This document shows positions 5,426-41,783 of a stretch of DNA of 41,783 nucleotides, in pieces; position 1 is the stretch's first letter; every line of letters begins with the position of its first letter. The translations under genes and the position numbers were made by a program. The stretch spans positions 1-41,783 of IMG/VR virus record IMGVR_UViG_3300007363_000036; one strand, written 5' to 3'. The DNA is from a virus. Below the pieces are notes generated by a model, which was not told where the DNA came from, made no database searches, and saw only the letters and a program-made list of their open reading frames with translations.

Positions 5426-5985
5426 TATCCCCACCTTTCACCAGGTTCACCATAAGGGGTATCATAAATACCCGTTCCTTGCTGTGCTTGCTTCTTTTTC
5501 TCAGGCCGGTTTAGAAAATAGTTCAATCCCGCCCCGAACAAATCTGCAAAACCGCTTCCATAGAAGCTTTTAAATTCTTCGCTGCCAAACATAGGGGCTA
5601 TTTGCGCCAATGCCATCATTGCCTGCTGCTTGGCCTGTTCATCAGCTAACCCCACGTCGATTGTCGCAGAACCTATGCCTTTTAGGCGTTCTGCGTTAAT
5701 GCGATTCAAGGCGGTCTGTTGAACACCGGTTCCGGCTCCGGCGCGAGTTAAACGGGATTGCGTGAGGGAACTTAATGCGCCTGCTTCGTTACCCAATCCA
5801 ATTTTTGCGCGTTGCAACATCTGGCTCACTGCCTGATCGGACAGCCCTTGCTGTGAACGCTCCAAAAGCATTTTATAAATCTTCCGCAATTCCGGCGGAA
5901 TTTCTGTCTTGCTTCCGCTTCCGAATAATGAACCAAGTGCCCCTATGCCCGTTGCTACCCCTGCAATGATTCCTGGTAGTGCCAT
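5425..5985 (-). CDS. Glycine-rich small virion protein, DNA-ejection-like
   Basis: 186 residues; ATG at 5985 follows GAGGTTGTGAC on the minus strand. The N-terminus (MALPGIIAGVATGIGALGSL) is a Gly/Ala hydrophobic segment that could cross a membrane. The middle is helical, rich in Q/A/L with many small residues (LSSLTQSRLTRAGAGTG), and a second Gly/Phe segment (GSGFADLFGAGLNYFL) precedes a charged tail. This layout is common in phage proteins ejected early into the cell envelope (T7 gp14, P22 gp7-like), but there is no diagnostic motif. TAATG coupling to the next gene suggests fixed stoichiometry. Confidence 0.7.
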   Translation of the reverse strand: MALPGIIAGVATGIGALGSLFGSGSKTEIPPELRKIYKMLLERSQQGLSDQAVSQMLQRAKIGLGNEAGALSSLTQSRLTRAGAGTGVQQTALNRINAERLKGIGSATIDVGLADEQAKQQAMMALAQIAPMFGSEEFKSFYGSGFADLFGAGLNYFLNRPEKKKQAQQGTGIYDTPYGEPGERWG

Positions 5986-6046: not shown

Positions 6047-7345
6047 TTAGCGTAGCTCTCTCCAAGTTAAACTTCCTTCAACATCCACGTTTGTACTGCC
6101 GCCAATAGGACGCACGACAACGAATATCGAATCAGATACCCCGGCGATGGTTGAGCCTAAATACCGCGCATTGGTAATATTCCCCGCCACGCTTCCCGCC
6201 CCGCCCGTCGCCACGCCGCTTGATTCGACATATCCCCCGGTTATAGCGTACCCTCCCGTTACGGTATTCGCGGTTGCGCCTAAGCAGGTTTGCACTCCGC
6301 TATTTGTCTCGTTATTCCAGGTTAGCGTTCCCGCTACGGTAGGATTGAAATAAATTGCCCACTCGCAGCGATTGCTTGCCGTTTGCAGTTGCAAAGCCAC
6401 GTTGACAAGTTTTACAACCGTATCAAGATGATCGGATTTTAGCTTTATTCCAATCAGGGCATAGACTGTATTTTCGGTGTTTGCGTCTAAATGCGTTCCC
6501 GCCGTTGATTTATAACGTAATACTCCATTTTCCTGTTGTCCGCCTTCGCTCATAACGCTTGAGCAGATATGATACATGCTGTCTGCCATTGCGGTCGAGT
6601 CGTTTGAGATCGCATAACGCAAGGGCAAATTCGGCGTGCTCATGTAAACAGTGCCCAGGCTGTTGGCGTTGTTAAATTCATGCACGTAATAAATAAGCCC
6701 ATCAACCACAAAGCCACATCTTACCCGCCCCACGCCAAGCCATTCCAGATCAATCAGGAATATCTGCGTTTTGGTGAAATCCAGCGTCACCCCGGAAACG
6801 CCTGTGCCCTTCATGGTGTCAAGATTCCAACTTGTTTGATAAACCTCATTGTCAACTGCGCTTCCGGTTACATAGGTGCGCCGAACCACAAACACGCTAT
6901 CATTGCGACTTTCCAGGAATATCCCATTCTTGTCATCGAAATAGCCTACCTGTTTGGTTATCCCCGCCTTGCTTTTAATGTTGGAAAAGGTCAAAAGAAT
7001 TAATTGGGATTTCCCCGGTTGATAATTGAATCTCATAAACGTCTGCCGGGTGCGCGTTCCCAAAGTAGTATCCGCCACTTTCATCTTGGTAGCGGCGTAA
7101 TTGTCAACGTATTCGGAAATAGAACTATCCGTTTCCTGATCGTCCCAAAACAAGGCGGAAGAATCGGTCAACTGCTTGCTGTCGAACAGGGTAAACGGCT
7201 CGGATACCCGCCAGCGCCCGAATGCATCAATAGAATAGGAATCCTGCGCCCGCACTTCCCGGTCTTTCGTTTCCGGCACAATGATACTGCTTTGCGCGTA
7301 AGCAACCGCGCTCAGTAGCAGGAAGATGTATAGTCGTTTCATCAT
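6047..7345 (-). CDS. Virion surface or fibre-type protein with N-terminal signal peptide
   Basis: 432 residues from the ATG at 7345 (ATGATGA overlap with the upstream stop). The longer in-frame extension to 7483 runs through the upstream gene and is Cys-rich noise. The N-terminus MMKRLYIFLLLSAVAYAQ reads as a Sec signal peptide ending AYA-Q. Next comes a block I associate with a widespread environmental-phage structural family (FGRWRVSEPFTLFDSKQL, FNYQPGKSQLI, LEWLGVGRVRCGFVVDG, PNLPLRYAI). The C-terminal ~130 residues are Gly/Thr/Val-rich beta structure. Likely an exposed beta-sandwich involved in attachment or decoration; the exact role is not determinable from sequence. Confidence 0.72.
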   Translation of the reverse strand: MMKRLYIFLLLSAVAYAQSSIIVPETKDREVRAQDSYSIDAFGRWRVSEPFTLFDSKQLTDSSALFWDDQETDSSISEYVDNYAATKMKVADTTLGTRTRQTFMRFNYQPGKSQLILLTFSNIKSKAGITKQVGYFDDKNGIFLESRNDSVFVVRRTYVTGSAVDNEVYQTSWNLDTMKGTGVSGVTLDFTKTQIFLIDLEWLGVGRVRCGFVVDGLIYYVHEFNNANSLGTVYMSTPNLPLRYAISNDSTAMADSMYHICSSVMSEGGQQENGVLRYKSTAGTHLDANTENTVYALIGIKLKSDHLDTVVKLVNVALQLQTASNRCEWAIYFNPTVAGTLTWNNETNSGVQTCLGATANTVTGGYAITGGYVESSGVATGGAGSVAGNITNARYLGSTIAGVSDSIFVVVRPIGGSTNVDVEGSLTWRELR

Positions 7346-7679: not shown

Positions 7680-8189
7680 TTAACCCATGAAAAACGCAAA
7701 CAATTCCGCGTTGAGTTGCACCGTATCGGCATACGCCTTGACCGATTGCTGCGTTGGCAAATGTGCAGCCGAATTGCTTGCCATGTTATCTTCATCCTTG
7801 ACCGGCACAACGAAATCAATGGTTCCGTCGCTATCCTCGTAAGTGACTGCAATAAACGTCTCGGTATTCCCGGTAAGCATTGCCCCGACTATATCCTGCA
7901 CATCTTCAATGACAGGGGAAGCTTTTTCTTCGTAGGTGAATTTCTTATTAACCCGGTCATATTGCAGATAGAAACCATTGTCATCGAATACCGGGGCGCT
8001 TAATTTGATGCCGTTGATATAAATCGAATCGCCTTCTACATAGATACTCCGGCAATGCACATCACGGTCGATATATACATCGCCTTCCCGGTTTGCTGAG
8101 ACAAAGTTATCCTCTATGTCTTGAAGCCGTTGATCTACCTTGCGATCTCCGGTGCGCTCCGGGAATTTATATTTCTTACGTGCTGACAT
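7680..8189 (-). CDS. Tail or fibre-associated structural protein
   Basis: 169 residues; ATG at 8189 overlaps the end of the upstream hub gene by 14 bases. The N-terminal ~30 residues are charged (SARKKYKFPERTGDRKVDQRL), followed by short beta segments (DVYIDRDVHCRSIYVEGDSI). Near the C-terminus is the phrase DNMASNSAAHLPTQQSVKAY, a recurrent motif in phage fibre and appendage proteins just before a helix. Probably a fibre or adaptor subunit; partner proteins are the neighbours at 7342-7677 and 8176-10995. Confidence 0.65.
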   Translation of the reverse strand: MSARKKYKFPERTGDRKVDQRLQDIEDNFVSANREGDVYIDRDVHCRSIYVEGDSIYINGIKLSAPVFDDNGFYLQYDRVNKKFTYEEKASPVIEDVQDIVGAMLTGNTETFIAVTYEDSDGTIDFVVPVKDEDNMASNSAAHLPTQQSVKAYADTVQLNAELFAFFMG

Positions 8190-10995
8190 TTAATATCCGG
8201 TCATGTTTTTTGACAAGGTACTCAATACCGATTGAATCAATATAGAGTTTATCCGCTATTGCTTCACTGATTTCAAATCTTACCACCTGCCCCCAAACGC
8301 CGGATAGATATTTTGTTTTCGTTTCATCGGCGGTGGGAGAAGAATCAAAGGTATAGCTCTTATTGTGCCATCCATCTTCGTTTAAATAGTAAATTGTTAC
8401 TGTTAAATCTTCTGTCCCGCTGGTGTTGTGAAAAGTCACAAATAGACGGGTAATAACCGCGTTCAGAAAGCTGTCGCCAAGCGGTATGTCGGCGCTTTTG
8501 AAGATAACCGTCATATCAGGGGAAGCGTCGTCAATGCTCGAATCAAATTCCCATACTTTTTCATCAACGTCATTCGAGCCAAATATCTTATTATCCAATG
8601 CCAGCCCCACATAGGCGAAATTGAACGCTGCGCCGTTGTTCACGTCATATATATCCCATGTTCCTTCATCATGGTTGAACAGATAAGACTTCGATGAGGG
8701 AACATGAAACCACAACTTGCGCTTGTTTTTGTAATACACTGCGGAAACGGAAGTCAATGTTTCCGCCGCTAACAGTTCATCAACCGGCATGGATATTCGA
8801 TTATACCCGGAAGGGGTAAGCGCATATATCCCATTCCTGTATATGAAATAAACCACGTTGTTATGGGTAACAATGGAATTGGGCGCGGATGTTCCGATGT
8901 CATAATTATTCTCTTTATCCAACCCGTAATACACCATGCAGCGATGACCTTTGAATGCAATAAAACGGTTCCATGCCGTTGCAAAGCCCTTGATTTCATC
9001 GCCGTCGTTAGGATGGAAGTAATCAATGTTTTGGTCATGCTGATAGGCAACATCCGGCGCGTTGATGGGCGTTTCAATAATTTCGTGCGCGTTGAGTTCA
9101 TCAGTGAGAACATTGCCGTAGTAATAGCGATCCTGAAATTCAATACCGTATTGCCAGTTGGTGTAATAGGGTTTAAAGGTTTCCGGCAATCCGCTCGATT
9201 CTTCGTAGGTGACGGTAGAAATAGACTTTTGTGCGGTTCCGTCGTAAAATTCAAACGTATAGAGCGCATTAGCGGTTACTTCTGTCCAGTCAACATCATT
9301 TATATCTATTTCCCGCAAAAAATTAAAATCAGTGGTCGGCTCCTGAGATGTTGATGTTTCATTGTATGCCCGGTAAACCCTGATTTTCTTGATACGTCGA
9401 AATTCATTCCATACCGATAACGCATCATCGGGGTCGGTCGATGGGGAAGTCATTTCGGCGAAAGCCTCAGAATTAACATTGACGCTTATCGTTATCTTGC
9501 TGGTTTGCACCCCATCGACACGGGTCACAACACATCCCTGATGTAAGTGGGATTCCTGCCCGTAAATATCAATAAGCGAAAAGGCGTAGAAAAATGTAGA
9601 ATTACTTGCATGAGTAATGGGAATATTCTGCAAAGGGCAGCTCATGGAAATTTTCGTCGGGATATACCCGGCTACATTAAAGTTTGTTACTCCATCAAAT
9701 TTTACAACTCTGCCGCTCTTTTGGGCAAGATAGGGGATTGCACTGTTAAAGTTGATCGCATTGAAATCCTGGTTTGCATCGGTATATTTGACGGAATCGC
9801 TGTTAAACGTCGCGGTTGCCGTTACATTAATAGTAGTCTTGTTGATGTAATACAGATTCCCGTCATAGTGGGCAATGTCAATCATGTTAGTTACGCCGGG
9901 ATTATAACTGTCTGCGGTATATGGTGATGCTTTTAACATTCTTATAATCAACCCATTATCCTGGTCAATGGCATACACATAAGTAGAATCAAAGGTAATC
10001 CCCAAAAGATGAACGCCTACCGAATCATAGCGGGTTGCCGCAGAACCCAGGGTAAGGGAATATTCCTCAATGCGAAAATTGACCGTATTTGTCCACGTAG
10101 CATAAACTTTGGTTCCGTCACAAGTAACAAAATGAAAATATTCATTGGATGCCGCGCTTTTTGTTACCGAATTGAGCACGTTAAAATCATCGGTGAGATC
10201 GTATTGCACAATTTTGGTATCATCGCTTTCGGGAATTGCCCCTGCTGCATAGAGGGAATCTCCGCTTATACATAATCCTCCGAATACCGCAGATACCGTC
10301 GCGGTGATATTATCCCGCCAGGTTCTTACGTCATCCAATATTCTTTCAACATAAAAATCACTATCCCGAATTTCTAATCCGCGACTGGTTAAAACATAGT
10401 ATCTCTCACGGGTTGAATCGTATAAAATATGCGTGGCTTCATTCAACAGGCTTGATTGCTGCACCCATTGTTGTTTCAACAAGAAGAAATCCGCAAAAGC
10501 AATGGCATCATTAAACATCGCTCCGTGCTTACTTCCTACCGCCCGGTTGATATACCCTGCGAACATCGCCCTGTTTGTCGCTGCTGTCCCTGTTCCGATT
10601 CTTACCCCGTTTCGATGCACCAGGAATTGCAGGTTATCGCCAAAGCGCAATGAACCGTATCGGTAGGTAGGGGTTGAATGCGCTACATAAGTTATGGCTG
10701 CGCCTAATGTCCTGGTGAAAACATAGAGGTCGCGGTTGGCGGCGGTAGAATCTTTATCGTAAACTATCAAAACATCCTTATTCCATTCCACATCACGGTA
10801 ATTGACAAATTTATCTATATTGGCGGCGGCAGAGGAAATAATGCCAATCGCTCCCCGGCTGATCAACTTACCGGCTTCAAGGTTGCTATCGAAGTTCTCA
10901 GCCTGTAGCGCGTAATCAATAGCATCGCGCTCGGATACTGCCCGGTTTACCCCTTTGAAATTGCTGAGTTTCAGGTATCGTTTTTCGCTTGCCAT
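8176..10995 (-). CDS. Large beta-rich tail hub / nozzle-like structural protein
   Basis: 939 residues from the ATG at 10995 (MASEKRYLKLSNFKGVNRAV), 8 bases after the upstream stop; the in-frame start at 11046 would lie inside the previous gene. The N-terminus matches the usual opening of podovirus hub proteins (NFKGVN followed by DYALQAENFD). The body has repeated short beta units rich in Tyr, Asp and Val, suggesting a propeller-like fold, and YYGNVLTDELNAHEI plus NSIVTHNNVVYFIYRNGIYAL resemble T7 gp12/P22 gp10-type tail proteins. Likely plugs or lines the tail tube beneath the adaptors encoded just upstream. Confidence 0.72.
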   Translation of the reverse strand: MASEKRYLKLSNFKGVNRAVSERDAIDYALQAENFDSNLEAGKLISRGAIGIISSAAANIDKFVNYRDVEWNKDVLIVYDKDSTAANRDLYVFTRTLGAAITYVAHSTPTYRYGSLRFGDNLQFLVHRNGVRIGTGTAATNRAMFAGYINRAVGSKHGAMFNDAIAFADFFLLKQQWVQQSSLLNEATHILYDSTRERYYVLTSRGLEIRDSDFYVERILDDVRTWRDNITATVSAVFGGLCISGDSLYAAGAIPESDDTKIVQYDLTDDFNVLNSVTKSAASNEYFHFVTCDGTKVYATWTNTVNFRIEEYSLTLGSAATRYDSVGVHLLGITFDSTYVYAIDQDNGLIIRMLKASPYTADSYNPGVTNMIDIAHYDGNLYYINKTTINVTATATFNSDSVKYTDANQDFNAINFNSAIPYLAQKSGRVVKFDGVTNFNVAGYIPTKISMSCPLQNIPITHASNSTFFYAFSLIDIYGQESHLHQGCVVTRVDGVQTSKITISVNVNSEAFAEMTSPSTDPDDALSVWNEFRRIKKIRVYRAYNETSTSQEPTTDFNFLREIDINDVDWTEVTANALYTFEFYDGTAQKSISTVTYEESSGLPETFKPYYTNWQYGIEFQDRYYYGNVLTDELNAHEIIETPINAPDVAYQHDQNIDYFHPNDGDEIKGFATAWNRFIAFKGHRCMVYYGLDKENNYDIGTSAPNSIVTHNNVVYFIYRNGIYALTPSGYNRISMPVDELLAAETLTSVSAVYYKNKRKLWFHVPSSKSYLFNHDEGTWDIYDVNNGAAFNFAYVGLALDNKIFGSNDVDEKVWEFDSSIDDASPDMTVIFKSADIPLGDSFLNAVITRLFVTFHNTSGTEDLTVTIYYLNEDGWHNKSYTFDSSPTADETKTKYLSGVWGQVVRFEISEAIADKLYIDSIGIEYLVKKHDRILNVST

Positions 10996-18508: not shown

Positions 18509-20722
18509 TTACGCCCCTATCAACATTGATTCTTCTTCTTCAAAATTAACTTCTATTTCCTTGCCGTTTGCGGCAAATCTCAATTTTTCAACTTCGTATT
18601 CCGGGGTGTCAAATATCTCAAATTTCTGGTCGCGCATCCATTCCACGCCCCGCCGGATATTTTCGATAAAGTGGTCATCTTTGTCAACCGGCTTCTGCGG
18701 CGCTTCTTTGCTGTCCCCCGTGCGGGTCATCGGCGGCGGCTGCCAGCGATAATTCTTGAACTCAAAGCGATGATGCTCAAGATCGGAAAAGATCATCAAT
18801 TGCGGAAACTGGCGGGTAATCTTTTCCTGTTCGCCCTGCATGTTCAAAATCACTTCCCATTCAAGATCAAGGGTTTCTTTCATCTTTACCAACCCGCCCA
18901 TAAGGTTCTTGCTTCCCTGGATCGGGTAGATAGCGGCATCGTTCAACTGCTCAACGATGCTTTTGGCATTAACATCTTCTTGTGACTTTTGCCAGCCACG
19001 CGGATCGCATATACACAAATCATGCTTGCGCCCCAGGCGATTCTCTAATAGTTCGATATATGACGCTAATTTGAATCCTCCGCCTTTCTCGAACAATTCC
19101 CCGCAAACATACATATACGGCAAATCCCGGAAAGGCGGATATTTCTCTGCTGTTTGTCTTTCCAGGTCTATCCACATCCAGGAAACGGCATGGGGTAGTT
19201 GCGGGTGCGGGTCGATCATCATTACTAACATTCCCCCTTCCGGCGGGATGGGGAAGCGGTCTATCACGAAAGGATGTTCATCTTTCCAACTCTCGAAGAT
19301 GCTACCACCTTTTGCAACTCGCTTCCCATAAATTCTGATGTCTATTTCCGCTTGATTGAGACACAGGGATTTGATCGTATTAATCATTTCCGGGGTGGCA
19401 ATGGGGTTGTCGTAGGTGCTCATTTCCATTGCGAAAACATGAGGATCGCCTTTTTCGGCAGGCTCGAATATCTTTTGCTCTGTCCAGGACACGCCTTTTT
19501 CTGCGGTCATTCCGCAAAGAATACGCCCGTTTGTGGAAATGATACGCATTAGCGCCTGTTGATAATGCCCTTCGGTCGGTTCTTCGTCAAGATGATAAAC
19601 GTGGATAGCTGCGCCGCCGTGTGCAATCACTTCTTGCGCATAGGTCATAAATTCAACCTGGCTCTTGTTTTTCCAGACGATCTTGCGGCGCTTTTCGTTG
19701 TCGTAGGAAACTTCTTTCAATTCTGCCTGGGTTGCCCATCTCTCGTATTCGGGTCCCAAGACCTTATCAACAAAATTCGGAAAATCAATGCCAACGCACC
19801 GCGCCTTTATCGGCGGTGAAGGAATCCACAGCTTTTTTTCCAGGAGTTTTTTGCACTGCTCCCTTACCCATTCATCGACCGCTTCCTCACTTAACCGGAT
19901 AAGATTCTCCCGTTGAAGGGGATGCCAGCCCTCGCATTGCGCAACTATGTCAACGATGCAAGCTGTACTTTTGCCGGAATTACAAGTAGGAATACCATTG
20001 GCAAGTATAAATATATGGCTTGGATTGTCAATCTTTAGACAGGCAACTTTTTTTACGCCGATATAATTTATAGTTTGTATCCAAAAATCTATTGGGTGAA
20101 TAAATTCAGAGTCAATATGATTGACCGGAAACCCGACATACTTACCACTGCGGATGTAATTCCTTAATTCTACTGGAGTTAATCTTTCAATTCGATGATC
20201 TTTTGGCGTTCTATCAAAATTATAAAGTTCATCAACAATAAGGACGGGCGAGGGGTGGTCATAAGAAACGTCAATACTGGAACCATTACTAACCTTGATA
20301 CGAAAACATTCTTCGTATCCAACATCAACATATTCAACAACTTTTGCCGGAACAGAAACCAAAGTTGCAGGATCAAGAGAAAGAACGGAATCGCCTTTTT
20401 CTATATCCGACAATCTTTTTATGCTTCCATCTGCCATTCTTATTTCCGAGTCAACGGAAATCGGTCTATTTCCACCACTGATAAATTTCAAGGTATGGGG
20501 TTGTAGATGAAAGCGGCGCTCTTTTTCGTTAGGGAAATACATCCATTTCCCTTGCGCTGCTTCAATGGGGCGGATAGCTTTATATAAATCTTGGATGAGT
20601 TTGTCTTGCGGATGCTCTGTGCCGGTTTCATTAACCGGAACAAGTTTACCTTCTTCCCACAACTTGCGAGCTTGTTGCAGGTATTTCAAGGTTTCCGCGT
20701 GTTCCGGCAAATACCAATACAT
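18509..20722 (-). CDS. terL: Terminase large subunit (ATPase-nuclease) interrupted by a mini-intein
   Basis: 737 residues; ATG at 20722 overlaps the upstream stop (TAATG). Exteins make a normal ~575-residue terminase. Walker A is split: ISGGNR (residues 81-86), then the intein, then SGKSTA from residue 249. Walker B with catalytic Glu is VYHLDEEPTEG (~376-386). The C-terminal RNase H-like nuclease begins with GGMLVMMIDPHPQ (Asp ~504) and continues with DLCICDPRGW. It packages DNA through the portal. Because the intein splits the P-loop, terminase activity should require splicing. Confidence 0.9.
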   Translation of the reverse strand: MYWYLPEHAETLKYLQQARKLWEEGKLVPVNETGTEHPQDKLIQDLYKAIRPIEAAQGKWMYFPNEKERRFHLQPHTLKFISGGNRPISVDSEIRMADGSIKRLSDIEKGDSVLSLDPATLVSVPAKVVEYVDVGYEECFRIKVSNGSSIDVSYDHPSPVLIVDELYNFDRTPKDHRIERLTPVELRNYIRSGKYVGFPVNHIDSEFIHPIDFWIQTINYIGVKKVACLKIDNPSHIFILANGIPTCNSGKSTACIVDIVAQCEGWHPLQRENLIRLSEEAVDEWVREQCKKLLEKKLWIPSPPIKARCVGIDFPNFVDKVLGPEYERWATQAELKEVSYDNEKRRKIVWKNKSQVEFMTYAQEVIAHGGAAIHVYHLDEEPTEGHYQQALMRIISTNGRILCGMTAEKGVSWTEQKIFEPAEKGDPHVFAMEMSTYDNPIATPEMINTIKSLCLNQAEIDIRIYGKRVAKGGSIFESWKDEHPFVIDRFPIPPEGGMLVMMIDPHPQLPHAVSWMWIDLERQTAEKYPPFRDLPYMYVCGELFEKGGGFKLASYIELLENRLGRKHDLCICDPRGWQKSQEDVNAKSIVEQLNDAAIYPIQGSKNLMGGLVKMKETLDLEWEVILNMQGEQEKITRQFPQLMIFSDLEHHRFEFKNYRWQPPPMTRTGDSKEAPQKPVDKDDHFIENIRRGVEWMRDQKFEIFDTPEYEVEKLRFAANGKEIEVNFEEEESMLIGA
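19979..20464 (-). other. Mini-intein in TerL Walker A, class-3-like (Pro1, block F Cys, block G Thr)
   Basis: 162 residues between GGNR and SGKST. Block A-like start PISVDSEIRMADGSIKRLSD then GDSVLSLD; block B-like GSSIDVSYDHPSP; block F-like KKVACLKIDNPSHIF; block G-like NGIPTCN followed by Ser+1. Residue 1 is Pro, so the usual Cys/Ser1 chemistry is impossible. Cys at the fourth block F position, Thr at the fifth block G position and Ser+1 match class 3 inteins, but the expected block B Trp appears to be Ser. No homing endonuclease domain fits in this length. The coding DNA is visibly more AT-rich than the exteins. Confidence 0.85.
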
Positions 20723-26057: not shown

Positions 26058-27002
26058 TTATACCCCCAAATATTGAGTTGCCCGGATTTGCTTGCCGCGC
26101 CGGATATAGCCGTCGAACGCGGCGCTTTTCCAGTCGCCGTAAGTCTTTGCAGCATCAACGGGCATACCCCCTACAATCGCCTGAGTCACCCCACCTGACC
26201 GGAGGGAGTGGCAGCCGATCTTTGCCGGATTCAACCCTGCCAGCAATGCGTATTTTTTTAGAATTTTCAGGATTCCGTCATAACTGATGGAGCCGTTTAC
26301 GTTGCCATGCCGGTCAACCGACCGGAACACACACCCCGATTGAATACCGGCCATCGCCAGCCATTGCTTCAAATTCTCTACCGGGCAGGTTTCGGTATTC
26401 TTGCCATACTCTATGATGATTTCACGGCCTTTCCGTGCCTGATCCTGTTTTTCCTTGCGCACCTTCACAGAAAGCCCGTCGCGTAAAAAAGCAATATCTT
26501 CAAATTTCAGGTTGTGCAGGTTTTCCGCCCGCAACCAGGTCGTAAAAGCGAACAGAATCATTGCCCGGTCACGCGCTCCCTTGATTCCTTCCGGCGTAAG
26601 CGCCAGGATTCTTTTCACATCATCCAGCAAAAGCGCCTGCTTCTGTTCTACCTTTGCGCCGACTTTGCGCTTGACGCTCTCCTTGTAGTCTTTTACAGTC
26701 TGGTCGATAGGGGAGGGGTGGCATTTTACAGCATGAATAACGTTGATCGCCGCCACGCGCCGCTTTATGGTACTCCATCGTGCATGACGGGCAAGAAAAG
26801 TGAGATACAACACTACCGTTTCCGGGGCGGCAGGCAAAAACTCTAAATCGTTATCCCGGCAGAACTGCGCGAAATCCCGGAAATCCGATTGGTAAGCCCG
26901 CCGGGTATTTGCGGCAAAACGCCCATGCGCAATCTCCCGCGCTTCCGCCAATAACAACGGATCGACTTTGGCAACGTTGCTATTCTTGACAGCTATCTTC
27001 AT
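26058..27002 (-). CDS. Tyrosine recombinase (phage integrase or resolvase)
   Basis: 314 residues; ATG overlaps the upstream stop (ATGA). N-terminal SAM-like DNA-binding domain (ANTRRAYQSDFRDFAQFCRDN). Catalytic domain: Arg I in TTWLRAENLHNLKFEDI, Lys in KVRKEKQD, HSLRSGGVT (His and second Arg), a later WKSAAF box, and the Tyr nucleophile in GYIRRGKQIRATQYLG. This arrangement differs from integron integrases, which carry an extra helix near the patch region that I do not see here. Suggests a temperate life style or genome resolution; no att site was identified. Confidence 0.85.
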   Translation of the reverse strand: MKIAVKNSNVAKVDPLLLAEAREIAHGRFAANTRRAYQSDFRDFAQFCRDNDLEFLPAAPETVVLYLTFLARHARWSTIKRRVAAINVIHAVKCHPSPIDQTVKDYKESVKRKVGAKVEQKQALLLDDVKRILALTPEGIKGARDRAMILFAFTTWLRAENLHNLKFEDIAFLRDGLSVKVRKEKQDQARKGREIIIEYGKNTETCPVENLKQWLAMAGIQSGCVFRSVDRHGNVNGSISYDGILKILKKYALLAGLNPAKIGCHSLRSGGVTQAIVGGMPVDAAKTYGDWKSAAFDGYIRRGKQIRATQYLGV

Positions 27003-27794: not shown

Positions 27795-28065
27795 CCTATA
27801 TGTAAAATAGTGCCGGGGGATGATCCATTAACGCACGTATCCGCATCCGCATTGCGCGGGGCGCGTTTTCCTTCCTGGGGCGGGTCGCGTGACACACACG
27901 GGGTCGCGTGTAGCAAAACAACGACAAGCGCAAGGCATCCGGGCGCAAGTGCGCACCGCAGCACCGCAGCGACGACGCGCCCGGATCGCCCAGCATCCCT
28001 GCCGTTTTTGCGGTGGCTTTTCGCGGCTGGTTCTTGATAACCGCCCTTATCAATACCCAGAAAAT
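27795..28065. other. GC-rich CpG-dense non-coding island next to terS (possible packaging site)
   Basis: About 270 bases whose composition is much richer in GC than both flanks, with a repeated GGGTCGCGTG (two copies around 27884-27910) and clustered GCAGCACCGCAGCGACGACG. The reading frames here code for improbable proteins on either strand. It sits immediately downstream of the small-terminase-like gene, where cos or pac sites often lie. Alternatively an inserted host fragment. Confidence 0.4.
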
Positions 28066-29196: not shown

Positions 29197-29241
29197 CTAA
29201 CCAATTCACTAATCTATCACTATTATTTGGAGGTATTAACA

Positions 29242-29703
29242 ATGGCAAAATTAGAAATCCGGGAGGAATACTCCCACGACACCCGCGAAGGATGGGCATG
29301 TGTAAGCTGGTGGCTTGGCGACGTATTGGTTGCCGAAAATGACGGCTCACATACGACGATTCACGCGCCGGAGTACAAAGAGGCGATTGAAGAATATTGG
29401 GAAGAAAACGGAAAATCTGATCCCGATTGGGAAGCTTACGATGATGCGCTATTGATTGACCAGGCAGCCCAAATCAGGGAAGATCATGGTGACGATTGGG
29501 TGATATTGCATAACGGATACGAGCAAGAAACATCCCGAGGATTTGCAAACACTTACAGCATCGACGATGCCGAAGAAGGCGATACATCCACTCATGGATG
29601 GTTTGAAGCTGAGCAGGTCAAAGATATTGGCGAAGAGTTTAATGCCGAGTTGGTGGCCTGGGCAACCGCAAAGGGATTGGATACCGTTAAGTATTGGTTT
29701 TAA
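29242..29703 (+). CDS. Very acidic protein, possible DNA mimic
   Basis: 153 residues from the ATG at 29242 (MAKLEIREEYSHDTREGW); TTG at 29227 is part of the ribosome site. I count 38 Asp/Glu against 10 Lys/Arg, net about -28, spread evenly, with many aromatic residues (WW, YW, WF). This is the profile of phage DNA-mimic anti-restriction proteins such as Ocr or ArdA, though no sequence motif links it to them. Ends DTVKYWF. Early position in the operon also fits an anti-defence role; that is inference. Confidence 0.6.
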   Translation: MAKLEIREEYSHDTREGWACVSWWLGDVLVAENDGSHTTIHAPEYKEAIEEYWEENGKSDPDWEAYDDALLIDQAAQIREDHGDDWVILHNGYEQETSRGFANTYSIDDAEEGDTSTHGWFEAEQVKDIGEEFNAELVAWATAKGLDTVKYWF

Positions 29704-29763
29704 CCCGTCTAAGCGGGTCTAAACAGGTTTTAGGCTTAGAGCGGCCTCCCTTAACCGGGAGGC
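29703..29763 (+). other. H-type pseudoknot plus hairpin before the 29793 gene
   Basis: ACCCG (29703-29707) pairs with CGGGT (29714-29718); its loop TCTAAG (29708-29713) pairs with CTTAGA (29735-29740); a small CTAAA/TTTAG hairpin lies between. A second stem GCCTCCC/GGGAGGC (29744-29763) follows, then GGAGGTATTAACA-ATG. It starts on the last base of the preceding TAA. Confidence 0.6.
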
Positions 29764-29792
29764 GTAACACTTAACCGATGGAGGTATTAACA

Positions 29793-36513: not shown

Positions 36514-37071
36514 TCAAAATGGCACATCATTCAATACCGGCTTAATTACCGCCGGTTTCTGTTGTTCGGTTTTCAAGATTTCCTCAATTAGCTGCATCAT
36601 CCAGGCTCTAATCTCCTCTCGTTTCGTATCTGCGACATTCTCTCCCATAACATGAGCCAAATACTCCCCGCTCCATCCGGTTTTTTTCCACAATTCCCGG
36701 ATATTCCCGGCAAATACCGCCGGGTCTTTAGGTCTGTTTTTACGGGCCTCAAATCCGGCCATAATGATTGCCAGAAAAAGCGCCCCAACCGGGGTCTTGG
36801 AAATTTCTTCCGGTTCCGCCGGGCGGGTTTCTTCGCGGCGCTTGATATTGTGATAAAACTGTTCAAAGATATTCGGAGAGGGGATATTGCGACGTTTAAT
36901 ATATTCATCAAGATACCCGCCGGTATAGGCCAATTGAACGGCCTCATTAACTTGAGTATAGTCACGGTAAAGCATTACCGCCTTATATGCGGCAAGTTGG
37001 TCATCATTCATTTCGCAATTACAATAATTTTTGATTTGCAATACAATCCGGCCAAATTCTTCATTTTGCAT
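36514..37071 (-). CDS. Replication-linked helical protein ending in an SSB-like tip
   Basis: 185 residues, helical: MQNEEFGRIVLQIKNYCNCE, then KRRNIPSPNIFEQFYHNI, WKKTGWSGEYLAHVMGEN. The C-terminus KPVLNDVPF resembles the D-[DI]-P-F tip of bacterial SSB that recruits many partner proteins. Follows the replication initiator with an 11-base overlap. May be a helicase loader or partner recruiter; no ATPase motif is visible. Confidence 0.55.
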   Translation of the reverse strand: MQNEEFGRIVLQIKNYCNCEMNDDQLAAYKAVMLYRDYTQVNEAVQLAYTGGYLDEYIKRRNIPSPNIFEQFYHNIKRREETRPAEPEEISKTPVGALFLAIIMAGFEARKNRPKDPAVFAGNIRELWKKTGWSGEYLAHVMGENVADTKREEIRAWMMQLIEEILKTEQQKPAVIKPVLNDVPF

Positions 37072-37930
37072 TTTCTGTTTCTCCTAATACTCTTTTGACC
37101 TGTTCCATTGTTTCGCGTTCCCGGCGTTGCTGAAAAGTCTCTTTACCGTTATCGGAAGATTCAGTATATTCTAACCAATCCCGCCAGTTATTGAACCAGG
37201 TAGAACCGTTTTGAACAAATCCCCGCTTGAAACGATCACAAGTTTTGTATTTTTCTAAAGCGGTTTTAAGGTCTGTGTAATCCTTTTCGTTTTTGACCGT
37301 TGCCCTATAATGTCGATAAGCATTCTTTTTCCCAACCTTCATTTGAGAGGGCAGGATTTCCCAAAATGCTTCAAAATTCTTGGAATATTCAACACGCGCG
37401 GTCGGATTCGGTTTTTCAGAATCCGACAATATGTTTTTAGTGGTTTCGTGATATAGTGGTATAGTGATTGTATTTGTGCCCTCAGTGTGCCCTCGGTTCG
37501 CCCTCAGTTCGCCCTCGGTTCGCCCTTTGCTGTGCCCTCTATTTTGATAAGATGCAAAATTACATATAGTTATGTGCGTCATTTGCTGCGTCAATTTTCG
37601 GCTTATCATAGATAAATTTTCTAAATTTTCCAGAAAGGTACGAACTTTTTTCTCTGTCCATCCCCAGGCTTTGGCTAAAAATCTTAGAGAATAAACTATT
37701 TCCCCGTAATTCAAAATAAACAGCTTATTTTCGATTACAATTTCACCCTTCTTGTTCGGATTTCCCCAGGCGTTAAGTATTAACCACATCCAGGCCTCTG
37801 AGCGTTTATAGGGTTTCTCAAATCCGATATACCCATGTTCGATTATACTTTTATAGATAAGCCGATAGCCGGAATTATAGCTTTCCTTGTTCTCGTTTAT
37901 AGAAAGGTTATCCTGTTCCGGGTAGTTCAT
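37061..37930 (-). CDS. Replication initiator (O/DnaD-like), with iterons inside the gene
   Basis: 289 residues. N-terminal winged-helix type block: EAWMWLILNAWGNP, FILNYGEIVYSLRFLAKAWGWTEKKVRTFLENLENLSMI, as in phage replisome organisers. A central low-complexity stretch encoded by the iterons (GRTEGELRANRGHTEG). The C-terminal part has FWEILPSQMKVGKKNAYRHY and STWFNNWRDWLEY, a module seen in replication proteins that contact DnaB or DnaC. Together with the embedded repeats, this mirrors lambda gene O and its origin. Confidence 0.75.
   Translation of the reverse strand: MNYPEQDNLSINENKESYNSGYRLIYKSIIEHGYIGFEKPYKRSEAWMWLILNAWGNPNKKGEIVIENKLFILNYGEIVYSLRFLAKAWGWTEKKVRTFLENLENLSMISRKLTQQMTHITICNFASYQNRGHSKGRTEGELRANRGHTEGTNTITIPLYHETTKNILSDSEKPNPTARVEYSKNFEAFWEILPSQMKVGKKNAYRHYRATVKNEKDYTDLKTALEKYKTCDRFKRGFVQNGSTWFNNWRDWLEYTESSDNGKETFQQRRERETMEQVKRVLGETENAK
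37441..37470. other. AT-rich segment next to the iterons (candidate unwinding element)
   Basis: The strip beside the repeats (read on minus as ATCACTATACCACTATATCAC) carries a direct repeat CACTATA and is AT-rich relative to the repeats. In lambda the AT-rich region also flanks the iterons. Unwinding function is inference. Confidence 0.45.
37472..37538. repeat. Five to six 11-bp tandem iterons, candidate replication origin
   Basis: On the plus strand, units at 37472, 37483, 37494, 37505 and 37516 end in GCCCT, with central copies CGGTTCGCCCT, CAGTTCGCCCT, CGGTTCGCCCT; a sixth imperfect 12-base unit follows. Period 11 is not a multiple of three, so the repeats are read in successive frames by the initiator gene. 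Confidence 0.75.
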
Positions 37931-37933
37931 TGC

Positions 37934-38335
37934 TCATTCTCCCAAACAAAGACCATCCATTGCTTTATTATGGAGATATTCGGCAGCATCGGCGCAAGCA
38001 TAATTGATCTTCTCTATTGCCATGACCTGAAATAATTTCTCTACTGCCAAATAAAAATTATCCAATGTTTCGACATCGACAACATCCCACGACATATAAG
38101 AACAGCCGAATTTGCAAACCATCGTTTGAATCGTATATTTACCATCTTGATGCAGGATACTATGACTGAGATTGTCATGTCTCAGCTCATAACTCCCATA
38201 TTTATCAAGAACCTCAACCTCAAAAGGCTTTGCCCCCGGAAAGAGGTCTTTTACAACTAAATTTGCAAACTCCAATTGATCATCTTTAATGCTGTTTTGG
38301 GGGAAATTATTCCGATCCGATTTTACGGTTTTCAT
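37934..38335 (-). CDS. Hypothetical protein, first gene of the replication operon
   Basis: 133 residues: MKTVKSDRNNFPQNSIKDDQ, VVKDLFPGAKPFEVEVLDKYGSYE, then MVCKFGCSYMSWDVVDVETLD, and a helical end with YACADAAEYLHNKAM. Four Cys. No family recognised. It has an unusually long, highly foldable 5' leader. Confidence 0.6.
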   Translation of the reverse strand: MKTVKSDRNNFPQNSIKDDQLEFANLVVKDLFPGAKPFEVEVLDKYGSYELRHDNLSHSILHQDGKYTIQTMVCKFGCSYMSWDVVDVETLDNFYLAVEKLFQVMAIEKINYACADAAEYLHNKAMDGLCLGE

Positions 38336-38340
38336 AACGA

Positions 38341-38500
38341 CCTCACTTTCTTATGAGTTAGATCAATCCCTTTGCTGCGGTGATTGCGAAGGGAGGGAAA
38401 AACCCACTTGCGGGAGCCTTGCTATCGGGGCAAAGGCGCTAAGGCAGGACCCGGTCATAACGTCGCCGTTATAACAGACTCCCGCAAGTCGATTTTTTTA
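38341..38500. ncRNA. Long structured leader or small RNA (strand unresolved)
   Basis: ACTTGCGGGAG (38406-38416) pairs perfectly with CTCCCGCAAGT (38479-38489). Inside are CCTTGC/GCAAAGG, a central arm, and ATAACG-TCGC-CGTTAT, giving a multi-branched fold of about 84 nt. On the plus strand it is followed by seven T (38493-38499), as a terminated small RNA would be; on the minus strand it is the 5' leader of the 37934 gene, with a CCCTT/AAGGG stem crossed by CAATC/GATTG nearer the start. Not a tRNA: no T-loop. Confidence 0.5.
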
Positions 38501-38538
38501 TGTTTTAGGAACATAACGCCTCAATTTTTATAGCGATT

Positions 38539-38592: not shown

Positions 38593-38838
38593 CTAACCTA
38601 CTTTATCGCCGCTACGCCGGAAGGTCACGGCTCCAGTTTCATCCACCGGCAAGTTAAACGGCATATCATCAACATCCCCATCCCACCGCCAGCCACTATC
38701 GGAAGCAGGTATAACAATGCCCTCGCGTTGCATCTTCTCCCGGATCGCCGCCTCGATAAAGGCGGTGTATGGGTTACAGTGCTCGCGCAAAGCCACCAGG
38801 AGGTTGGGCGGGAGCTTTATGTTGACCTGTTGTCGCAT
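38593..38838 (-). CDS. Ribbon-helix-helix-like DNA-binding protein
   Basis: 81 residues. RQQVNIKLPPNLLVALREHCNPYTAFIEAAIREKMQREG fits ribbon-helix-helix: a beta strand (QVNIKLP), helix, turn, helix. The C-terminal half is acidic/aromatic (DSGWRWDGDVDDMPFNLPVD). Could be a repressor or an orphan antitoxin; no toxin gene is adjacent. Confidence 0.55.
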   Translation of the reverse strand: MRQQVNIKLPPNLLVALREHCNPYTAFIEAAIREKMQREGIVIPASDSGWRWDGDVDDMPFNLPVDETGAVTFRRSGDKVG

Positions 38839-38890: not shown

Positions 38891-38922
38891 GCGGCCTAAT
38901 GGTTAGTATATAGTTAGGCCGC
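38891..38922. other. Intergenic hairpin after the second methyltransferase
   Basis: GCGGCCTAA / TTAGGCCGC 9-bp stem with a 14-base AT-rich loop, 6 bases past the methyltransferase stop on the minus strand. No immediate T-run. It contains GTTAGGC but lacks the arm pattern of the attC sites to the right, so I do not call it attC. Confidence 0.5.
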
Positions 38923-38927
38923 CTGCG

Positions 38928-40127
38928 CTATCCCGCAAAATTAAGCATTCCCTGTTTCATCCGCTTTTTAGCGGTTCGGCAATCTTTCTCGTTTATCTCG
39001 ATCCCGATGGATTTGCGCCCCATTTCCCGCGCTGCCAGCAGGGTAGTTCCCGATCCCATAAACGGATCGAGAATAACGCCGCCCAAGGGGGTGGCGGTCA
39101 GCCTGCAAAGGTATTTCATTAAATCCAGGGGCTTTACCGTGGGGTGGTCGTTATCTTCGCCGCGCTCATTCGGGGCAGCTTTGGCGGTGTAGAAGAAGCG
39201 GGAAGCGCCGCCGGAATCGCCAAAGCAACTGATAGGAGTTCCCGTCTCAAAACGCCCATATATTTTGTTATTTGCTTTCCTGATACCAACAGGCTTACCA
39301 CTTGTCAAAATCCCGCTTTGTTCATCCAGCAATTCCGCCGCGTATTCGTCTAAAATAACATTGGCAGGCCAGCGGCCTTCTATACTGCCGTTGATGTGTT
39401 GTTTCTTACCCATTCCCCACCCGTCGCCATTAGTGCCAGCATTACTATTACGTATCGTGCTTTCAATCCCTATCCGGCATCCCTCAATATTCAACCCCGC
39501 CACGCCCCAGGTAAGGGCATTGTTTGCAAAAGTTCCTTCAATCGGCTTCATCGCTACAATGATCGGCTCCCAGGCGGGCTTTAAGCCCGTGCCCCAGCCG
39601 TGCCAGGTTTGGGCGGCTTCGGATACAGGAAGCGTCTTATTAAATTCCGCTCTTTCTCTAAACCCCATTTGCATAATATCACCATCATGTATCTTACCCT
39701 TAGATGGTTCGGCCCCTCTGTTCCTGCCATCGGCGGAAAAGTTTGGTACAAATTCTTTTCTTTCCGCCCCCGCCGCCTTGTCAATCGCCTTGCTAATATC
39801 ATGGCTTTTCGGAAAGCTGGAGCCATAAAGCCAATTGATGCAATCCCGGATTTCCCAACCGGCATCCTCAATGGCGCAAGTCAGGCGGTGATAAGTGCGC
39901 GTTCCCCCAAACGCCAGGAGATACGCGCCCGGCTTCGCCACCCGCAGCGCCTCCGCCCAATAGGGCACGCCCGGCACGCTGTGATCCCAATTTTTGCCCA
40001 TGAATTTCAGGCCGTAAGGCGGATCGGTTAGGATCGTATCAACGGAGTTTTCGGGAAAGACTTTCATAACATCTAAGCAATCCCCGGTGTATATGGTCAC
40101 TAAATCATCGGTAAAATACGGTTGCAT
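38928..40127 (-). CDS. Second DNA methyltransferase (DPPYG, beta class)
   Basis: 399 residues. Motif IV VDTILTDPPYGLKFMGKNWD near residue 30; a target-recognition-like middle; C-terminal VILDPFMGSGTTLLAAREMGRKSIGIEI (motif I, D-P-F-x-G-S-G-T) and an NEKDCRTAKKRM helix. Order IV then I is beta class, usually N4-cytosine or N6-adenine. Also contains a HPTVKPLDLMKYLCRL block. The attC site at 40158 begins 31 bases upstream of its start, so it may be cargo of a cassette. Confidence 0.86.
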   Translation of the reverse strand: MQPYFTDDLVTIYTGDCLDVMKVFPENSVDTILTDPPYGLKFMGKNWDHSVPGVPYWAEALRVAKPGAYLLAFGGTRTYHRLTCAIEDAGWEIRDCINWLYGSSFPKSHDISKAIDKAAGAERKEFVPNFSADGRNRGAEPSKGKIHDGDIMQMGFRERAEFNKTLPVSEAAQTWHGWGTGLKPAWEPIIVAMKPIEGTFANNALTWGVAGLNIEGCRIGIESTIRNSNAGTNGDGWGMGKKQHINGSIEGRWPANVILDEYAAELLDEQSGILTSGKPVGIRKANNKIYGRFETGTPISCFGDSGGASRFFYTAKAAPNERGEDNDHPTVKPLDLMKYLCRLTATPLGGVILDPFMGSGTTLLAAREMGRKSIGIEINEKDCRTAKKRMKQGMLNFAG

Positions 40128-40157
40128 TATTTCCCTGTAATCTTTTAACCTCTGGCG

Positions 40158-40223
40158 GTATAACTACGCATCCACCTGAACCCGCCACAATACGGTGGGT
40201 CAGGTGATGCAAGTTCGTTAGAA
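40158..40223 (+). other. attC site 1 of the integron-like cassette array
   Basis: R'' GTATAAC (40158-40164), stem GCATC/GATGC, extrahelical C (40173), stem ACCTGA/TCAGGT, extrahelical A (40180), stem CCCGCC/GGTGGG, then R' GTTAGAA (40217-40223). The C and A lie in the 5' arm six pairs apart, exactly as in aadA1-type attC. Nearly identical to site 4 outside its central loop. Confidence 0.85.
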
Positions 40224-40230
40224 CGCTGAT

Positions 40231-40968
40231 TCAGCGATTGCAAAACAATCCGCACTCTAAACCTACATCGTCATTTTTCATTGCGGATTGATAAACTTCG
40301 TTGGCGCTAAACAATTCACCTTGCGCCTGAATAGCTTGGATTGATTTACCCGCATTCGGGAACATTAAAGCAAATTTTCCACGCTGGTCTTGAACTTCTT
40401 TTTCAAGTTCCTTCAAGCCTTCCGCCACTTCCGGGAGAAGATTAACAATCGCGGATACTTCCGCCTTGCGTTTGTAAAAGCATCCGATACAGCCGCCACG
40501 CGCCATGTAAAGCGGAAAGCGGGGCAGTAATCCAGTGTCGGCGCAAATCTTCAAACAATCAACCCGGTCTAATCCTTTTTCGCGTAATGGATAGCGAATT
40601 TTTAACCCTTCCAAATTTGTTATATTCCCAATTCGTTCCGGTTCGTCTGCTCTTAAACCAATTAGCAATTCAGCCGGCAGATGATTTTTAATAAATTCAT
40701 TATAGGGCTCAATCTTGAAAAGACGGGTGCAGTATCTTGATCCATGCCCCGGAAAATAATTTTGTTTTTTGATATAATCGGGTAAACTGCCATGTTTTGA
40801 TTTAAGCCTTATCACATTGCGCCCCGTCATTTTCTCAAATTTGTTTATGTGCGCGTAAAGTTCCGGGAATTCCCAACCCGTGTCAGTAAACACAAGTTGT
40901 GCATCCGGGCAAATTAAGGCAAGTGCTGTGCTGTCAACTCCACCGCTAAAAGCTACAAATCTTTCCAT
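40231..40968 (-). CDS. PP-loop / PAPS-reductase-like protein (cassette gene)
   Basis: 245 residues. AFSGGVDSTALAL is the N-type PP-loop; TDTGWEFPELYAHIN follows. Cysteine motifs RYCTRLFKIEP, GGCIGCFYKRK and a final LECGLFCNR suggest an iron-sulfur site, as in phage PAPS-reductase and DndC-like proteins. Such proteins may serve sulfur metabolism or DNA phosphorothioation or other modifications. It fills a 832-bp attC-bounded cassette and is antisense to the usual cassette orientation; its stop is 8 bases from attC 1. Confidence 0.82.
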   Translation of the reverse strand: MERFVAFSGGVDSTALALICPDAQLVFTDTGWEFPELYAHINKFEKMTGRNVIRLKSKHGSLPDYIKKQNYFPGHGSRYCTRLFKIEPYNEFIKNHLPAELLIGLRADEPERIGNITNLEGLKIRYPLREKGLDRVDCLKICADTGLLPRFPLYMARGGCIGCFYKRKAEVSAIVNLLPEVAEGLKELEKEVQDQRGKFALMFPNAGKSIQAIQAQGELFSANEVYQSAMKNDDVGLECGLFCNR

Positions 40969-40991
40969 AATATTAACTCCGTGCCACGCTG

Positions 40992-41055
40992 TTCTAACTC
41001 CACATGCACCCGATGCCGCAAAAGCGGCGGCACGGGTGATGCCTGGTCGTTATAT
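40992..41055 (+). other. attC site 2 of the array
   Basis: R'' TTCTAAC (40992-40998); CAT, extrahelical G (41006), CACCCG, extrahelical A (41013), TGCC; loop; GGCA, CGGGTG, ATG; R' GTTATAT (41049-41055). Its R'' is the reverse complement of the R' of site 1 over 8 bases. Confidence 0.82.
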
Positions 41056-41063
41056 TTCTCCGC

Positions 41064-41267
41064 TTAGTTTGTTACCCTTATTTCAACTTTTACTACTCTA
41101 TCGCCTTGTCTTTTGCATCGCTTCCATAACTTGTCACGTCTCTTCATATCAATAAAAAATCCCGCCCCAAATTTCATCCTTACGTGTTCCGTAATTGCAT
41201 CCCGGCGAGTCAACCAAGTGCCAATATAAAGCCCGTGTACTCCTATTATTGCCCACATTGTTTCCAT
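41064..41267 (-). CDS. Small cassette-borne protein
   Basis: 67 residues: METMWAIIGVHGLYIGTWLT, then KFGAGFFIDMKRRDKLWKRC and VVKVEIRVTN. A short alpha/beta protein with a basic middle; no family recognised. Sole gene of a 366-bp attC-bounded cassette. AAGGAGAAAG lies ahead of the ATG on minus. Confidence 0.55.
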   Translation of the reverse strand: METMWAIIGVHGLYIGTWLTRRDAITEHVRMKFGAGFFIDMKRRDKLWKRCKRQGDRVVKVEIRVTN

Positions 41268-41293
41268 TTCTTTCTCCTCAATGTCGCTCCAAA

Positions 41294-41421
41294 ATATAAC
41301 AATTTAATCAACGCGACGGCGGGATTGGGTAGCCTCAGAAAATTGGTCGGCATATTCATCTTATCTACCCATTCTGCCGTGGTAGGTAAAATCCCGCCGC
41401 GCGTTATCAAAGCCGTTATAT
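41294..41421 (+). other. attC site 3 of the array (long form)
   Basis: R'' ATATAAC (41294-41300); extrahelical C, stem AACGCG/CGCGTT, extrahelical A, stem CGGCGGGATT/AATCCCGCCG; larger central loop with an internal TGGGTAG/CTACCCA stem; R' GTTATAT (41415-41421). Its R'' matches the R' of site 2 in reverse complement over 9 bases. Confidence 0.82.
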
Positions 41422-41423
41422 GG

Positions 41424-41690
41424 CTAAGGCCGATTTTTTGACCAAAACCATTCCTTTAAATACAAATCCCCACTCGGAGAAAACCCGATAACACTTTTGG
41501 GTATCCATTCAGACCGATTACCTAAACCATCATTCAGAAATGTAATTAAAGCAGCTTTTTGAGTAACTTGTTCCGTCACCCATTCGTTCGATTCGGCAAC
41601 GTGAACAAATTTCCCATCGTGCATATCAAAATCGCTTACCATCTGCGTTAATGGATCATCTAATAGTTGCTCATGGATTTGCGATGCCAT
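41424..41690 (-). CDS. Hypothetical cassette-borne protein
   Basis: 88 residues: MASQIHEQLLDDPLTQMVSD, then FVHVAESNEWVTEQVTQKAA, and IGFSPSGDLYLKEWFWSKNRP. Mixed, mildly acidic, no family recognised. Sole gene of a 361-bp cassette; its stop lies 2 bases from the R' box of attC 3, and GCGGAGAG precedes the ATG. Confidence 0.55.
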   Translation of the reverse strand: MASQIHEQLLDDPLTQMVSDFDMHDGKFVHVAESNEWVTEQVTQKAALITFLNDGLGNRSEWIPKSVIGFSPSGDLYLKEWFWSKNRP

Positions 41691-41718
41691 ATTTTTCTCT
41701 CCGCTTGGTTGCTACGCC

Positions 41719-41782
41719 ATATAACTACGCATCCACCTGAACCCGCAAAAGACGCGGGTCAGGTGATGCAAGTTCGTTGGGC
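41719..41782 (+). other. attC site 4 of the array
   Basis: R'' ATATAAC (41719-41725); GCATC, extrahelical C, ACCTGA, extrahelical A, CCCGC; loop AAAAGAC; GCGGG, TCAGGT, GATGC; R' GTTGGGC (41776-41782, a perfect GTTRRRY). Its R'' matches the R' of site 3 in reverse complement over 10 bases. The array evidently continues past the window. Confidence 0.85.
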
Positions 41783-41783
41783 T

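Follow-up and report, generated by a model that had tools for sequence, protein, structure and literature searches.

A probable phage-borne array of integron gene cassettes at the right end of a viral contig

The right end of the viral contig described here probably represents a phage-borne array of at least four integron cassettes, of the kind termed CALIN, i.e. two or more close attC sites with cassette ORFs and no integrase. It would lie in the early operon of its phage, a tailed and probably temperate one of ~60 kb. The window under analysis is the whole of IMG/VR record IMGVR_UViG_3300007363_000036, a linear viral fragment of 41,783 bp. A preliminary description, made by reading the sequence, had proposed a CALIN-like array in, or directly beside, a phage genome, and this proposal is supported by a covariance model of attC sites (R1), by the lack of an integron integrase in the contig and by synteny with the related viral contig G034.

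The proposal was built on four hairpins with AAC and GTT boxes, each said to carry two extrahelical bases in the same arm, six pairs apart. All four exist, are attC-like and lie in cassette orientation on the minus strand according to both a geometry scan and the covariance model: attC1 at 40155–40226, attC2 at 40989–41058, attC3 at 41291–41424, which is of a long type with ~120 bp between its boxes, and attC4 at 41716–41783, whose 5' flank is cut by the contig end. The detailed bulge geometry holds for sites 1, 2 and 4, where the bottom (plus) strand DNA folds show two single-base bulges six pairs apart; at attC3 it is found by the geometry scan only, and in minimum-energy folds the bottom strand of this site has a single bulge, its top strand two. 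The scan, purpose-written to find AAC/GTT boxes together with two extrahelical bases in one arm, returned these four sites as the sole matches of 30 or more in the window (44.0 for attC4, and 42.5, 39.5 and 37.8), while 16.7 Mb of dinucleotide shuffles gave just two matches of 37.5 or more.

R1 was trained on 45 attCs of bacterial GTDB arrays, mainly from Acidobacteriota, and the window and the Brocadia contig discussed below were left out to reduce circularity, with the caveat that the training arrays had been located by a pattern taken from the attC arms of the window and their sites chosen by the geometry scan. Run over the whole window, a check of the kind that the preliminary description had called for, it accepted all four sites, with 38.5 bits for attC1, 42.1 for attC2, 31.7 for attC3 and 38.9 for attC4 (E 1e-7 to 6e-5 over 445 kb). 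The next-best place in the window, at 16.3 bits, is the opposite strand of attC1. Two plasmid integron loci, taken as yardsticks, score 36.3 and 28.4 bits, and an array in a Shewanella phage scores 27.8 bits. In the published phages TJE1 and P12002L no site was returned by R1 at E 1, so the model covers the broad attC type of the window and is not universal. At the level of sequence, the four hairpins are confirmed as attC sites, and their recombination by an integrase is predicted.

Similar sites were sought by pattern in both bacterial and viral sequences. In GTDB genomes a strict attC pattern had no match, whereas relaxing it brought up 36 loci, most of them arrays of Acidobacteriota and one of them the informative Brocadia contig. 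Exact patterns of the attC1/attC4 type and of the attC3 type were run over 2.9 million viral contigs, where the former occurred in seven stretches and the latter in none. Among the seven, a single one (L008) had attC-like geometry at the match, scoring 14 in a first scan and below 30 in a second; it was set aside, and this GC-rich match is probably due to chance. By these exact patterns, no second phage with the attC type of the window was found among the 2.9 million contigs.

Read along the minus strand from the contig end, the order is attC4, an 88-aa ORF (41424–41690), attC3, a 67-aa ORF (41064–41267), attC2, a 245-aa ORF (40231–40968), attC1 and a 399-aa methyltransferase ORF (38928–40127). 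The observation of a single ORF between each pair of sites thus stands, four attCs alternating with three ORFs within 1.6 kb, and the resulting cassettes measure 425, 302 and 834 bp; in this layout the array resembles CALINs. The 88-aa product had no match in PADLOC, Pfam, NCBIfam or phage records, and its PHROGs matches all lie above E 0.03; the 67-aa product had no family or phage match. The 245-aa product resembles PAPS reductases and SspD (PF01507, 2.8e-12; phrog_424, 1.6e-41; PADLOC SspD, 9.9e-38) and has 50–54% identical counterparts in two viral contigs; a comparison with solved structures gave no match. Genes for methyltransferases and PAPS/SspD-like proteins are common phage cargo, and the nearest viral relatives of the two cassette products (three contigs for the methyltransferase, two for the PAPS-like protein) were negative for attC in the scans applied to them. 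Between 37.9 and 41.8 kb, predicted promoters and terminators did not exceed chance.

Whereas the array had been delimited at 40158–41783, it actually extends to 38891, with the methyltransferase cassette and a collapsed attC added. All four ORFs, the methyltransferase included, begin 28–35 nt past the preceding GTT box, each with a Shine-Dalgarno-like sequence ahead of its start, and the methyltransferase (N6_N4_Mtase, PF01555, 7.7e-31) thus has the position of a cassette. The closest relative found for it shares 57% identity and is itself a cassette between two attCs on L018, a 3-kb contig of the metagenome-assembled genome (MAG) of the anammox bacterium Candidatus Brocadia sp. WS118, in the order of an attC with arms nearly identical to those of attC1 and attC4, the methyltransferase and a full attC. 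The DNA similarity between the window and L018 extends beyond the stop codon of the methyltransferase gene as far as the AAC of an R'' box, which in the window is part of the collapsed terminal attC (38891–38922, minus strand), consisting of R'' GCCTAAC and an inverted R-like ATTAGGC 12 nt apart and scored by R1 at 11 bits on the minus and 15.2 bits on the plus strand. The reading of the methyltransferase as a plain phage gene beside the array was dropped after this comparison.

The same MAG shares a second attC type with the window, as the arms of attC3 recur in another of its attCs (L089:4465–4526). It contains an integron integrase at 364 bits and 14 attC matches, and R1 finds matches in 32 of the 33 genomes of its family. 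In those 33 genomes the 67-aa and 88-aa cassettes have no match, the PAPS-like cassette has one at 34% identity and the phage portal a single weak one. The MAG is thus a relative of the cassette pool, not a proven host, and it may include co-binned contigs. On one of its loci (L062, G001:C36:50000-69000), attCs at 5743–5808 and 6397–6526 of the plus strand lie 1.2–1.9 kb upstream of the integron integrase (~7681–8604), which is on the same strand and hence reads in the cassette direction. Between two attCs of L018 (1850–2550), ORFs that by sequence appearance are PIN-domain toxin-like and small antitoxin-like run against the cassette direction.

The remainder of the contig is that of a tailed phage, with PHROGs for a terminase small subunit, a portal, a major head protein, an integrase, a DnaD-like replication protein and a Holliday junction resolvase. 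Nearly all PHROG-recognised genes, plus the large terminase, are on the minus strand. The large terminase (18509–20722, minus strand), for which there is no Pfam family, was identified via tblastn to annotated terminases and 79% identity to that of G034. Its residues 87–233 (~147 residues) are missing in G034, and as this insertion starts like a Hint/intein domain, a mini-intein in the large terminase is probable. Moving towards the array, the phage tyrosine integrase (26058–27002, minus strand; PF00589, 6.6e-13, phrog_1) is followed by the DnaD-like gene (37061–37930, minus strand; phrog_270 and phrog_2514, E ~1e-15; 47% identity over 130 aa at G034:56669–57082), a 133-aa early gene in common with G034 (37934–38335, minus strand; 32% over 106 aa at G034:54041–54385) and, as first gene past the array, an 81-aa ORF without family at E 1e-3 (38593–38838, minus strand). 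A long stable hairpin (ACTTGCGGGAG ... CTCCCGCAAGT) occupies 38400–38510, between the 81-aa and 133-aa genes.

The position of the array within the phage genome can be read from G034, a 61-kb viral contig that is co-linear with the window and related to it at 88% in the major capsid protein, 78% in the portal and 79% in the large terminase (outside the 147-residue insertion). In G034 the homologue of the 133-aa gene is at 54.0 kb, that of DnaD at 56.7 kb and the terminase small subunit at 3.9 kb, so that DnaD and the small subunit are ~8 kb apart across the two contig ends, against ~8.5 kb in the window. From these matching distances we infer that G034 is a circularly permuted, near-complete genome of ~61 kb, and roughly 20 kb of phage would then be missing to the right of the window. 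Near the array, the 133-aa and DnaD genes are the only ones matched in G034, where further early genes of the same strand (51–54 kb) and then a repressor-like region follow upstream of the 133-aa gene. Since this synteny places the corresponding spot inside the early operon, the array would lie in that operon and along its transcription, and the earlier statement that it is in line with phage transcription is borne out, as it points in the same direction as the replication genes. In the window itself, phage genes are seen on one side of the array, and the contig ends inside attC4. Neither of the relatives, G034 and G035, was found to have an attC; the array is hence not a trait of the lineage.

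Among the other explanations, the one that survives best, although unlikely, is a host integron beside a prophage, perhaps integrated in the attC of the methyltransferase cassette, with the prophage–host border at ~38.9 kb. Integration into an attC would give the stop of similarity to the bacterial methyltransferase cassette at the R'' box, the phage has an integrase, and a Vibrio anguillarum prophage with attC-flanked excision sites is known (PMC9892861). However, the integrase lies ~12 kb from the proposed border, has phage genes on either side and stands between the genes for the small and large terminase subunits in both phages, hence away from the array, and the corresponding spot of G034 is internal to the early operon, with more early genes upstream; these two facts make such a border unlikely. 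Moreover, the window contains no tRNA and no repeat of more than 12 nt between the ~38.9-kb border and the rest of its sequence, and the array is co-oriented with the early genes.

A complete phage-borne integron, with intI and attI just past the right end, appears a little less likely still, and it would refine the phage-borne CALIN rather than wholly exclude it. In its favour, the contig breaks off within attC4, a few temperate phages are known to carry complete integrons (PMC9892861), and the integrase of the Brocadia MAG has attCs upstream on its own strand. On the other hand, the model of integron integrases (TIGR02249) has no match in the 41.8-kb contig, whose one tyrosine recombinase falls into general phage/Xer integrase families, far below the level of integron integrases. 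The intI gene that marks a complete integron was thus not found in the window, and the description of the array as integrase-less holds for these 41.8 kb, which end within attC4. In addition, the related phage lacks attC, and among published phages CALINs (17) outnumber complete integrons (3) (PMC9892861).

An assembly chimera, in which a bacterial cassette array was wrongly joined to a phage contig, is very improbable. Although the array sits at a contig end and attC repeats are present, the two sides of the border share no repeat above 12 nt that could have caused a false join, array and early genes are co-oriented, and phages with the same arrangement have been published. Composition is the same on both sides, the tetranucleotide value of the array (0.247, against a mean of 0.253) lying within the phage range, and it did not separate array from phage. 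Finally, that ordinary hairpins or terminators, frequent as they are in phage intergenic regions, carry AAC/GTT boxes by chance can be discarded, being refuted by the covariance scores and shuffles, by arms near-identical to the attCs of a bacterial array and by a terminator scan that lists none of the four sites.

The phage-borne CALIN fits the published description of such arrays. In a screen of 10,705 phages, Qi et al. (2023) reported 17 CALINs, three complete integrons and one integrase that lacked cassettes; five methyltransferase genes were present in cassettes associated with phages, and five of six phage attCs recombined with IntI1 (PMC9892861). The view that cassette arrays are rare in phages therefore needs qualification: they are uncommon, but phage CALINs with methyltransferase cassettes were already published in 2023 (PMC9892861), including those of Tetrasphaera phage TJE1, Polaribacter phage P12002L, Pseudoalteromonas phage PH101 and phage MW202573. 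Like these, the present array has at least two attCs with cassette ORFs, an N6_N4_Mtase cassette and, within the 41.8 kb of the contig, no integron integrase, as well as inverted GTTRRRY boxes at its border (PMC9892861). In contrast to them, it belongs to an unrelated phage, exact patterns revealed no other viral contig with its attC type, one of its cassettes and two of its attC types can be traced to a single bacterial MAG, an SspD/PAPS-reductase-like cassette is present, and it is known solely from metagenome sequence. The case thereby contributes a new lineage of phages, together with a cassette pool that can be traced to bacteria.

When compared with other cassette systems, the closest likeness is to the arrays of Candidatus Brocadia sp. 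WS118 (PHFX01000274.1 and others), through the near-identical attC arms, the methyltransferase cassette and the long attC type, but those arrays have their own integron integrase and a full attC after the methyltransferase, and contain no close relative of the 67-, 88- and 245-aa cassettes. With class 1 and class 2 mobile integrons (plasmid loci L065 and L066) the window has in common an attC architecture recognised by R1 and promoterless cassettes in one direction, whereas neither an intI nor a resistance gene is seen in it, nor an attI or Pc. Integron cassettes are also carried by the temperate Vibrio anguillarum phage Va_90-11-286_p16 (MK672802), but that phage has a complete integron acquired from the array of its host, and attCs lie at its excision sites; the window shows no intI.

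As a mechanism, the cassettes may have been captured in a host cell by the integron integrase of that host, acting on folded bottom-strand attC hairpins and recombining them with an attC or a secondary G|TT site, the single strands arising in replication or entry of the phage DNA. Once in place, they would be expressed by read-through from upstream phage early promoters, and the methyltransferase and the SspD/PAPS-reductase-like enzyme could modify DNA such that the phage escapes host restriction. Gain, loss or hand-over of cassettes would be confined to hosts supplying IntI. A wider and considerably more tentative proposal is that phages use the early operon as an integron-like platform, capturing anti-restriction cassettes (methyltransferase, SspD-like) from integrons of anammox bacteria and their neighbours, expressing them early and transporting them from host to host, while a collapsed attC would fix the border on the phage side. 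The cargo is in keeping with a use of integron cassettes by phages as a source of DNA modification that counters host restriction, and viruses may help to move such genes between cells. The window is one more uncultivated but well-supported case among the small number of phages known to have integron cassettes. Its overlap with one anammox MAG, in one cassette gene family and two attC types, opens the traffic of cassettes by phages to testing.

Some further features were observed in the contig. The 17-bp sequence TGCGTTAATGGATCATC at 27819–27835, near the phage integrase, has an inverted copy at 41644–41660 within the 88-aa cassette ORF; a repeat of this length exceeds chance expectation. At 29703–29769 (plus strand), a Pistol self-cleaving ribozyme of 66.8 bits overlaps the stop of an ORF at 29227–29703, amid small plus-strand genes. 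Finally, a different sample (IMGVR 3300025635) contains a 7.3-kb viral contig whose encoded portal is 100% identical to that of the window, so the same or a very close phage is present elsewhere.
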